Source: a virus. From it: a DNA stretch of 44,402 bases. The position numbers were made by a program, and so were the translations under genes. The stretch is from positions 1 through 44,402 of the IMG/VR virus record IMGVR_UViG_3300003691_000017. One strand, 5' to 3'. This document shows, piece by piece, positions 22,151 through 24,757 of this stretch (position 1 is the first letter of the stretch; every line of letters begins with the position of its first letter). The notes below the pieces were generated by a model. That model did no database searches, was not told the origin of the DNA, and was given only the letters and a program-made list of their open reading frames with translations.

Positions 22151-23386
22151 TTAACCCAACAGCATTGCGATATGCTCACGCTTATTTGCTTTGTAACCCC
22201 AAGCAATTGCAACTTCAGCTTTCACCATCCGTTGACCAGCCCAAAGGGTAACTTCGAAAACAAGACCCGAACGCGGGTCAGTAATCATCAGGCGGTCAAT
22301 TGCAAGGTCACCTTCGTTCGGCAAGGCCGGTGCGCGAGTTACAAGATGTAGAGCGTTGTTTGAAAAACCAACGTTCGCAGCGTATGTTCCGCCAACAGTA
22401 ATTGCCGTTGCAGAGGTTGGAATTGCTTTGCGCAAACCAGGCGCGGCGATAACAACCGAACCACCATCTGAAACGTCACCGTCACCTGTAACAACCATGT
22501 ATTTATTGCTATCACCAGCGAACGTAATTGCATTACCTGCAAGAATTGTACCAGTGCCAGCGGACGCGAGATTAATAGTTGTTGCACCAACCGCATAACC
22601 AGCCGTATCGGTTGTAGCAAGTGCGCCCGTACCAGCGGTATTTTCAACAGGTTGACCGGTTTCTTTAACGGAAAGACCGTTCAAATCCAACAGTTCACCT
22701 TGACGCAATGTCATAGATGTGCCAGCCTCGTTAACCTTTGTCAATTGTGACAAGGTACGCAACGCCGCGCCCGCAGTTGTATTGATAACCAATGAACGCC
22801 CTGAAGCTGGTGCGCCGTTATCATCAAGAATTTTGCGGATTTGCGCAGTTTCGCCGGTATTGGTTCCAAACGGTGTTGTACCAGGTGTACCCCATGCTCG
22901 CGAGGCATTTGCAGCCGCTTCAACAGCAAGATCAGCTTCAATTTCATTTGTCAAAACGCGCAAGGCTTGCGCAAACAAATCAGCCTGAACAGACAAATGA
23001 CCAGGTCCAGTATTCAGCCCACGCTGTTCTTCACCGGTAAAACCAAAAGATGAACCGCGCGATTTTGAAATATTAATAAAACCAGCCGCAACAGTTTTAT
23101 CGGTTGGGTTACCAACCTGCATTGAAGGTACAATATCATAAGCGGTTGCATCTGGTGCAACATGGTAAACAACATTTTGACCTTTCATCGCCCGTTCAGC
23201 AGATGGTGCGCGGGCGACAGATGGGATAAAACCAACAAGTTCGCGCGAAACAACGTCCAGGCCAGAATATAGATCAGGAATAAGACCATCCAGCGTGTTC
23301 GCATATGCGGAAAGATGACCAATGTTCGGGGCGGCTAGAAGGGTTGCAGCAAGAGTTACTGAACCAAGTGGAAAAACTTTACGCAT
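22151..23386 (-). CDS. Major capsid protein, P22 coat-like, with an N-terminal signal-like extension
   Basis: This 411-residue protein has the P22-type coat pattern: LDGLIPDLYSGLDVVSRELVGF, FIPSVAR, then AAGFINISKSRG and SSFGFTGEEQRGL, an Ala-rich helix, a beta-rich inserted domain about 250-330, and VTLWAGQRMVKAEVAIAWGY near the end. Residues 1-29 are unusual: MRK, a hydrophobic stretch, and SAYA before N30, like a Sec signal with an AxA site. As I recall, related coat proteins start at about the ANTL position. AAGGAA precedes ATG 23386, and no other in-frame Met or good start lies before residue 67. A hairpin follows the gene and a paired-hairpin leader precedes it. Confidence 0.92.
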   Translation of the reverse strand: MRKVFPLGSVTLAATLLAAPNIGHLSAYANTLDGLIPDLYSGLDVVSRELVGFIPSVARAPSAERAMKGQNVVYHVAPDATAYDIVPSMQVGNPTDKTVAAGFINISKSRGSSFGFTGEEQRGLNTGPGHLSVQADLFAQALRVLTNEIEADLAVEAAANASRAWGTPGTTPFGTNTGETAQIRKILDDNGAPASGRSLVINTTAGAALRTLSQLTKVNEAGTSMTLRQGELLDLNGLSVKETGQPVENTAGTGALATTDTAGYAVGATTINLASAGTGTILAGNAITFAGDSNKYMVVTGDGDVSDGGSVVIAAPGLRKAIPTSATAITVGGTYAANVGFSNNALHLVTRAPALPNEGDLAIDRLMITDPRSGLVFEVTLWAGQRMVKAEVAIAWGYKANKREHIAMLLG

Positions 23387-23419
23387 TTGAGCGTTCCTTT
23401 AATGATGTGAAAAATTTTA

Positions 23420-23452
23420 GGTCATCCGACCCGAGCGCTTGCAGTCATCCAA
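23420..23452 (-). promoter_or_regulatory. Paired GGAU-loop hairpins in the coat gene leader
   Basis: On the minus strand, TTGGATGACTGC, 11 bases, then TCGGATGACC. Each half can fold with GGAT in the loop: GTT-GGAT-GAC (one G-U pair) and GGTC-GGAT-GACC. It ends 33 nt before the coat ATG. The same arrangement precedes the scaffold gene with compensating base changes. The GGA-in-loop form resembles CsrA/RsmA target sites. The protein that binds it is not known. Confidence 0.65.
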
Positions 23453-23474
23453 CATTCAGCAATATATGTTGTTA

Positions 23475-23501
23475 ATTATAGCATTTATAAATTAACGTCA
23501 A
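23475..23501 (-). promoter_or_regulatory. Candidate late promoter for the coat gene
   Basis: On the minus strand TTGACG (23501-23496), a 15-bp spacer and TATAAT (23480-23475). The spacer is shorter than ideal. It lies 89 nt before the coat ATG and upstream of the paired hairpins, so the transcript would contain both. Confidence 0.5.
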
Positions 23502-23530
23502 GATTTTTAATTTATTTTCGATTTAGTGCT

Positions 23531-23559
23531 TGACCATCGCGATAACCAACGCTATAACC
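23531..23559 (+). promoter_or_regulatory. Early-type promoter cassette (copy 1)
   Basis: TTGACC (23531-23536), the conserved spacer ATCGCGATAACCAACGC and TATAAC (23554-23559). It drives the small gene at 23593, and the A-rich leader shared with other copies follows. Confidence 0.8.
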
Positions 23560-23592
23560 ATTACAACGAAACGCAACAATAGGAATGAAACA

Positions 23593-23775
23593 ATGAAATT
23601 TGCACTTAGTCAGGAAACAGCAACAACAGCAGGATTGTTAGTTTTATGGAATGAAGATGTAGCACCTAGCAAACGTACAACATACCAAGTTAAACTTGGC
23701 AATGAATTAGTTGCTGAAGGCGATGCTAAAATATGCAATGTATATTTTAACTTAAAACGTATTTTAAGTAAATAA
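23593..23775 (+). CDS. Small hypothetical protein inserted between coat and scaffold genes
   Basis: This 60-residue protein (MKFALSQETATTAGLLVLWNE...) starts at ATG 23593, chosen because AGGAATGAAACA and the promoter cassette lie just before it. The open frame begins further upstream, but that part is promoter and leader. It is a lone plus-strand gene between minus-strand coat and scaffold genes, with its own promoter and a double-hairpin terminator. Function unknown. Such isolated units are typical of genes added to phage genomes. Confidence 0.75.
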   Translation: MKFALSQETATTAGLLVLWNEDVAPSKRTTYQVKLGNELVAEGDAKICNVYFNLKRILSK

Positions 23776-23783
23776 AACGATCA

Positions 23784-23861
23784 CCGCCCGCGCTGGAAAC
23801 CCTCAAAACAGCGCGGGCGGCTATAGCCGGTAGAAAGACCGAAACAACCGGCTATTCTTTT
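23784..23861. terminator. Double hairpin between the small gene and the scaffold gene
   Basis: CCGCCCGCGCTG (23784-23795) pairs with its complement at 23809-23820. TAGCCGGT (23824-23831) pairs with ACCGGCTA (23847-23854), followed by TTCTTTT. The second hairpin ends plus-strand transcripts. Both could also slow or stop minus-strand transcripts leaving the scaffold gene. Confidence 0.8.
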
Positions 23862-24684
23862 AGGTCAGGTTGAGTTCACCTTTACCCATTAGCGCCGCCG
23901 CTTCAGCAGCTTGCGCCGGTTGAAGTTTTTCAAAATCAGCACGGGCCATTGTGCGACCTTGACCACGTCCGCCGCCTTTGCCGCCCGCGCCCGAACCTGT
24001 GCCGTCATCGGCTTTCAAAATTGCATCTTTATGTGCATAACCATCAACAATAATTTCAAGCGCTTCATCGAGATTAGCAACTTCGCCCATCCGCGTTTTT
24101 GAATAAACTTTATTACCATCTGCACCGTATGGAATGATTTTACCATCTTCAACTTTGAAGTTTTGCCCAAATTGTGCACGAAACATTTCAGCAGGAACGC
24201 CAATTTTATCATTGACGAAATCGGACGTTGAAAACGCATTATCCAACATCATTTTGTCAATCGTTGAACCTTGTGAAGCAATGGTTGCATCTTTTTCACC
24301 AAGTTGAACAGTGAAGCCTTTGCTGATTTCATCTTTCACTTTGTCGATTTCACCGGCATCAACCAAAGTTTTTGCGTCAATTTTTGAAATAAGATCAGCA
24401 TCTTTTTTTGCTTTTTCAGGATCAATACCATCGAATTTTTTCAATGACGCTTCAGCAGCTTCAGCGCGTTCACGGTGACTTTTTGCCTCACCGTTCAAAC
24501 GTCCAATTGTACCGCTATCAACGCTTTGTTCTGAACCATCATCTTTAACCCAAATAGGATTGCCGTTCGACAATTCAAGATTACCGTCTTTATCAGTTTT
24601 CCAACCGGCTTTGCCGCTGTCAAATGCAACAATGTGTGCTGCACCAACGGTAAGAATTACGGTTGTTAATTTCAAGTTTTTCAT
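23860..24684 (-). CDS. Capsid scaffold protein
   Basis: This 274-residue protein is hydrophilic and helical, with IGRLNGEAKSHRERAEAAEA near 64-83, VDAGEIDKVKDEISKGF, and a Gly-rich linker (SGAGGKGGGRGQG) before a C-terminal FEKLQPAQAAEAAALMGKGE segment. Scaffolds of P22-coat phages show this pattern, and the gene lies between portal and coat. Residues 1-21 (MKNLKLTTVILTVGAAHIVAF) are basic then hydrophobic, a weaker version of the signal-like N-termini of the coat and tail tube proteins. ATG 24684 follows a GAAAG ribosome site of modest strength. The leader holds paired GGAU-loop hairpins. Confidence 0.85.
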   Translation of the reverse strand: MKNLKLTTVILTVGAAHIVAFDSGKAGWKTDKDGNLELSNGNPIWVKDDGSEQSVDSGTIGRLNGEAKSHRERAEAAEASLKKFDGIDPEKAKKDADLISKIDAKTLVDAGEIDKVKDEISKGFTVQLGEKDATIASQGSTIDKMMLDNAFSTSDFVNDKIGVPAEMFRAQFGQNFKVEDGKIIPYGADGNKVYSKTRMGEVANLDEALEIIVDGYAHKDAILKADDGTGSGAGGKGGGRGQGRTMARADFEKLQPAQAAEAAALMGKGELNLT

Positions 24685-24698
24685 TTTAATTTCTTTCT

Positions 24699-24731
24699 GA
24701 TCATCCGATCAATTGCACCGCAATCATCCGA
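24699..24731 (-). promoter_or_regulatory. Paired GGAU-loop hairpins in the scaffold leader
   Basis: On the minus strand, TCGGATGATTGC, 11 bases, then TCGGATGATC. The halves fold as AATC-GGAT-GATT and TGATC-GGAT-GATCA. The element ends 14 nt before ATG 24684 and so may occlude the ribosome site. Spacing is identical to the element before the coat gene, and stem positions differ by paired changes. Confidence 0.65.
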
Positions 24732-24757
24732 TTAACGGCAATACTAGGGTTTAGGGT

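Follow-up and report, generated by a model that had tools for sequence, protein, structure and literature searches.

An array of GGAU-loop RNA hairpins ahead of phage scaffold and coat genes, associated with the DUF6651 scaffold protein and proposed as a translational operator

We describe an RNA element, an array of short hairpins with GGAU loops, which lies ahead of the scaffold gene and often of the coat gene in phages of alpha-, beta- and gammaproteobacteria and Planctomycetes. On balance, we favour as moderately probable the view that the DUF6651 scaffold protein recognises the element as a translational operator and thereby sets the synthesis of scaffold and coat; the scaffold would be the ligand and the control would be repressive. 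The DNA analysed here (the window) is a whole virus record of 44,402 nucleotides (44.4 kb) from a siphovirus whose nearest named relatives are the Rhizobium phages P106B and RHph_X2_24. Its head genes are on the minus strand, and the gene order on that strand is large terminase, portal (phrog_145), scaffold, coat, connectors and tail. The scaffold gene (23860..24684, minus strand) encodes a 274 aa DUF6651 protein (PF20356, phrog_784/206), the proposed RNA ligand, and the major coat gene (22151..23386, minus strand) encodes a P22 gp5-like protein (phrog_283, PF11651).

The initial annotation had reported two elements of identical spacing, in each of which a second GGATGA follows 23 nt after the first, and this is exact: GGATGA-N17-GGATGA occurs twice in the window, at 24701-24729 and 23422-23450, both on the minus strand, against a chance expectation of 0.02. 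The two copies lie in the scaffold leader (gene start 24684) and the coat leader (gene start 23386), and each leader contains two GGAU-tetraloop hairpins with loops 23 nt apart. In the scaffold leader, unit 1 (24716..24740, minus strand; loop 24729-24726) is a two-tier hairpin. Its lower tier, P0, pairs UGCCG (24740-24736) with CGGUG (24720-24716), corresponding to a UGCC/GGYG consensus with a covarying extension in relatives, and its upper tier, P1, pairs AAUC (24733-24730) with GAUU (24725-24722); both tiers are present together in the predicted MFE fold. Unit 2 (24698..24711, minus strand) is UGAUC-GGAU-GAUCA, with its loop at 24706-24703 and the start codon 22 nt on, and is supported by covariation. 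In the coat leader, unit 1 (23439..23462, minus strand) has a short GUU/GAC stem, a loop at 23450-23447 and a P0-like pairing of UUGC (23462-23459) with GCAA (23442-23439), which was recognised by eye and departs in form from the UGCC/GGYG consensus, whilst unit 2 (23419..23432, minus strand) is GGGUC-GGAU-GACCU, with its loop at 23427-23424, again supported by covariation.

The further claim that each half can fold with GGAT in the loop holds in part. The flanking arms pair at all four GGAT words, and the second hairpins of the two leaders are stable alone (-4.4 and -5.4 kcal/mol); however, the window hairpins are AU-rich, and hairpin 1 is weak alone in the scaffold leader (-1.0 kcal/mol) and, with 3 bp, unfolded alone in the coat leader (0.0 kcal/mol). 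The paired stem changes between the leaders are present as described, with GAUC/GAUC against GGUC/GACC in hairpin 2 and a closing pair that goes from C-G to U-G in hairpin 1. Two sequences alone are insufficient to demonstrate covariation, and the proof of it comes from the relatives. Two other readings of the window sequence were rejected: coat hairpin 2 was listed as an intrinsic terminator by a terminator scan for which 1.6 such sites are expected by chance, and a mini-ORF of 8 codons, which in both window elements runs from the loop-1 AUG to a UGA after loop 2, finds no three-base preference in the 18-26 nt spacing. A candidate promoter for the coat transcript was read by eye at 23475..23501 (minus strand; TTGACG - 15 nt - TATAAT, with TG before the -10). 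The consensus scan, which demands a spacing of 16-18 nt, missed it; a coat mRNA starting from this promoter would have the element close to its 5' end.

The element is a folded RNA, as is evident from about 330 related loci gathered via scaffold and coat. In a loop census for which no motif was preset (stems of at least 5 bp), GGAT was by far the commonest tetraloop, being found in 125 of 182 unique scaffold leaders and 60 of 216 coat leaders. In 125 non-redundant scaffold leaders, 181/260 GGAT words (70%) were enclosed by stems of 4 bp or more, compared to 53/916 (6%) in gene bodies, a count that is not conditioned on pairing because every leader GGAT word entered it. Pairs 1 to 5 were paired in 92, 90, 83, 74 and 50% of cases, against 78, 42, 48, 46 and 36% expected from column composition, and pair 6 was at chance; there were 61 distinct 4-bp stems, and the closing pair was C-G in 142 cases, U-G in 21 and U-A in 16. 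Among 56 aligned hairpin pairs (alignment A4, for which a stem of 3 bp or more was a selection criterion and pairs 1-3 are thus conditioned), 90% of cells were paired and 179 had changed on both sides, compared to 59.5 after shuffling and 13-68 in slid controls. Stem covariation across related genomes is therefore strong, and GGAU pairs are present in homologous leaders, with the hairpins spaced 18-26 nt apart in relatives. G.U pairs outnumber C.A pairs (76 vs 22) and hairpins with the reverse-complement ATCC loop are nearly absent, and therefore the sense RNA is the strand that folds. A DNA operator was rejected, as arm complementarity is kept, arm sequence is not, and G.U exceeds C.A.

In 56 of 106 pairs, UGCC lies 7-8 nt ahead of the first-hairpin loop (background 7-9%), and GGYG lies 6-7 nt after the loop. 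The next base pair of P0 covaries (0.89 vs 0.55 expected in scaffold leaders), and the first two extension positions were paired 69 times in both leader types together, compared to a maximum of 58 in 2000 permutations. The conserved UGCC/GGYG and the covarying next pair therefore make unit 1 a two-tier hairpin; units 2 and 3 each consist of a single 5-bp stem with its loop. The array is often immediately preceded by an intrinsic-terminator-like hairpin followed by UUUUUU(A)UGCC (L290, L132, L267, L329 and HK639, L331:4901-4922), and P0 abuts the U-run because the latter runs straight into UGCC. Such U-runs ahead of many arrays could point to transcription attenuation or to antitermination of the put kind, and the antiterminator RNAs of HK022 and HK639 are likewise tandem phage RNA hairpins. 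We regard this explanation as very unlikely, since the hairpins hug the start codon and not the terminator and, apart from the window coat leader, no U-run follows the hairpins in the leaders read. Furthermore, put sites are located at early promoters, and the put-like RNA annotated in HK639 is distinct from the element and lies at another place.

The element is positioned at translation start sites. Non-redundant scaffold leaders contain two hairpins in 43 cases and three in 34. In the main class, the last loop is mostly 18-26 nt ahead of the AUG, with the Shine-Dalgarno sequence right behind the hairpin. In a second class (24/88 leaders) it is only 8-14 nt ahead of the AUG and is the sole Shine-Dalgarno candidate, and therefore the GGA of the loop must act as one; start codons were set by BLAST match and nearest ATG, and a few are possibly wrong. 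The closing base is U (U-G or U-A) in 15/21 hairpins of this second class versus 7/56 of the other (p=1e-6), and a weaker closing pair is as expected if the ribosome must open the hairpin. A conserved hairpin at the ribosome-binding site is a feature expected of a structural-protein translational operator, and a translational role of the element for scaffold and coat is well supported. The P0 lower tier, the three-hairpin scaffold leaders and the location of the last hairpin at the ribosome-binding site had escaped the initial annotation.

The position of GGA loops at Shine-Dalgarno sites is also what would be seen if no dedicated protein were involved and the hairpins increased the output of structural proteins, either as Shine-Dalgarno-like standby sites for the ribosome or as stabilising elements. 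The genes served are indeed abundant structural ones, namely scaffold, coat and, in two records (L009 and the record of L095), the tail tube, where an extra copy precedes the major tail protein gene. This explanation leaves the restriction to DUF6651 phages unaccounted for. Moreover, the exact U after GGA (scaffold-leader stems carry GGAU 181 times, GGAA 15, GGAC 5 and GGAG 0) is not needed for anti-Shine-Dalgarno pairing, and we consider the explanation improbable.

The initial annotation had proposed binding by CsrA/RsmA proteins, with the host protein attaching to both GGA loops and holding down the translation of scaffold and coat. The element resembles CsrA/RsmA target leaders in having GGA in hairpin loops, paired sites (18-26 nt apart here, about 20 nt in those leaders) and one site overlapping the ribosome-binding site, but the loop is a tetraloop. 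The CsrA core is A(N)GGA, with A at -2 of GGA, presented in an ANGGAN hexaloop, whereas here the loop is closed by a Y-R pair and A at -2 occurs in only 2/181 scaffold-leader and 2/80 coat-leader hairpins. Nor was csrA (PF02599) detected in the window record or in 9 of 16 host genomes (some of them drafts) with DUF6651-scaffold prophages. These nine comprise six alphaproteobacteria (Rhizobium, two Phyllobacterium, Xanthobacter, Afipia and a Rhizobiales MAG) and three betaproteobacteria (Aquitalea, Castellaniella and an Alcaligenaceae MAG); the hosts with csrA are Pseudomonas, Citrobacter, Acinetobacter, Tatumella, Pseudohongiella and two Planctomycetes. The element is also phage-restricted: covariance model R1, run on 11 whole bacterial genomes, gave matches in 10, all of them prophage copies, although weak host copies could be missed because only the best first-look candidates were scored. 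CsrA as the ligand is thus hardly tenable. The broader suggestion, that a phage or host protein sets scaffold and coat output, survives for a phage protein, as the element tracks the DUF6651 scaffold, but not for host CsrA.

The element associates with the DUF6651 scaffold rather than with the coat, the portal or host CsrA. Among 172 non-redundant coats from a single family, a hairpin pair lies within 1.8 kb upstream in 87/103 with DUF6651 compared to 1/69 without (p=4e-31), and the lone exception without an adjacent DUF6651 gene (L175) has its scaffold gene 5 kb from the coat gene and the element before coat only. In 28 whole virus records, all seven with the element encode DUF6651, L175 included, and the 19 without DUF6651 are all free of the element. 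The same trend was seen in genome sets that were not picked for the element: in 149 Enterobacteriaceae genomes the RNA was found in 6 and DUF6651 in 7, with 5 shared, and in 199 Rhizobiaceae genomes each was found in 4, with 3 shared. Of the unshared genomes, G371 has a GGAA-loop pair, and an RNA-only match near purine genes in G190 was taken as chance. That the hairpins occur almost only in phages with a DUF6651 scaffold suggests that this scaffold reads them.

The RNA ligand could instead be the coat protein, as in the RNA phages, given that the protein is abundant and that the element lies ahead of coat genes in many phages. The near absence of the element from members of the same coat family without DUF6651, together with the retention of the hairpins by DUF6651 scaffolds beside unrelated coats, makes this quite unlikely. 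Genes in very tight linkage are indistinguishable by association, and small unknown genes lie near the scaffold in some phages, so that another phage protein, encoded beside the scaffold and always co-inherited with it, might be the ligand. However, the portal does not predict the element, which persists when the portal differs and is found in 0/26 loci (not de-duplicated) of the same portal family without DUF6651. Few other candidates remain, because the scaffold neighbours in HK639 are the portal, HK639_04 and coat, and we give this possibility a low probability. The DUF6651 scaffold remains our preferred ligand.

About 20% of DUF6651 loci have no detected pair; some of these carry GGAA-loop pairs, and some divergent DUF6651 scaffolds have GAGAU-like loops. 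The most divergent scaffolds (L214 and L237) lack GGAU hairpins and have GGC-GAGAU-GCC-like hairpins ahead of the start codon, where loop and protein may have changed together. A Rhizobiaceae genome (G355) contains a full GGAU pair (L351:1490-1545) with a perfect P0, UGCCGCC/GGCGGCG, although P0 is not in the model. This copy is flanked by an integrase gene and an excisionase/AlpA-like gene; the island around it also contains a primase/helicase-like gene and has a phage-satellite-like layout. No DUF6651 was detected in the G355 genome despite the genuine-looking element, and the island gene had no relatives among 297 genomes.

Of 30 phage records, 24 contain one to three copies by the covariance model, located at scaffold and coat leaders where checked; among 5426 complete E. 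coli genomes, about 14 have the element. Neither in the window nor in 20 diverse loci did any Rfam family match the element at the gathering score, a more permissive run on the window region was also empty, and no paper on DUF6651 or on a GGAU tetraloop was found in the part of the literature covered. The element, its loop code and the link to the DUF6651 scaffold appear to be new; the translational operator of structural genes is, as a kind, already known. In the RNA phages MS2, PP7 and Q-beta, an operator hairpin at the start site is bound by the coat protein, which represses translation. Here too a structural protein is proposed to recognise a short start-site hairpin and to repress translation, but the element occurs in tailed DNA phages, as arrays of two or three hairpins, and is linked to the scaffold rather than to the coat.

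The P22 scaffold (gene 8) limits its own synthesis after transcription and is not known to control coat. P22 resembles the phages described here in its recycling, self-limiting scaffold and in the gene order portal-scaffold-coat; it differs in that the gene 8 leader is 13 nt long and has no GGAU hairpin, and no RNA site for the autoregulation was found in the literature searched. The recycling of P22 scaffold is from procapsids (PMC9576892). By analogy with P22, we infer a model in which the scaffold acts as ligand, repressor and feedback signal. Free DUF6651 scaffold, outside procapsids, would bind the short GGAU-loop hairpins, two or three in a row, at the ribosome-binding sites of the scaffold and coat mRNA leaders. 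Once bound, the scaffold would keep 30S subunits off the mRNAs for scaffold and coat, and in some phages off that for the major tail protein as well, and production of scaffold and coat would thereby track the state of assembly. A wider and more speculative extension, which we consider doubtful, is that the DUF6651 scaffold moonlights as an RNA regulator throughout a large family of tailed phages, linking translation of the scaffold, coat and, at times, tail-tube mRNAs to capsid assembly, and that a satellite-like island with a copy of the operator may respond to scaffold made by a helper phage.

The DUF6651 scaffold is an elongated coiled-coil protein and is likely to be oligomeric. The AlphaFold2 model (pLDDT 85.6) comprises a small N-terminal beta domain, a coiled coil, the DUF6651 domain and a C-terminal mini-domain attached via a Gly-rich linker. 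A conserved N-x-E-A-K-x-H-R-E segment ahead of the coiled coil is a first candidate for a surface that would contact the RNA. The model gave no hint of RNA binding, and DUF6651 scaffolds have no recognised RNA-binding domain; Foldseek and VIA-align of the model returned nothing above noise, and no sequence relative was found in the PDB.

It has long been asked how phages fix the proportion of scaffold to coat. The present results provide a specific RNA site, supported by covariation and spread over phages of Proteobacteria and Planctomycetes, and name a candidate ligand in DUF6651, a domain of unknown function; they make assembly-coupled translational control directly testable in the E. coli phage HK639, whose DUF6651 scaffold is gp5. 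If the model is true, DUF6651 gains a function, and RNA tagging would gain a useful tool in a 14-nt GGAU hairpin that has a protein of its own to bind it.

Two further features were observed. In the window clade, scaffold, coat and major tail protein all have a signal-peptide-like N-terminal stretch (window 24684-24625, 23386-23303 and 13972-13900, minus strand), and such starts are also seen in L001, L009, L012, L086, L087 and L095. In coat, for example, MRKVFPLGSVTLAATLLAAPNIGHLSAYA stands ahead of NTLTG, whereas other phages with the same coat begin MANTLTNLIP. These N-termini were rejected as a trait linked to the element, which is more widespread than the extension. A small gene-like ORF (window 23530-23775, plus strand) lies between scaffold and coat on the opposite strand, and P106B and X2_24 likewise have small opposite-strand genes between scaffold and coat.
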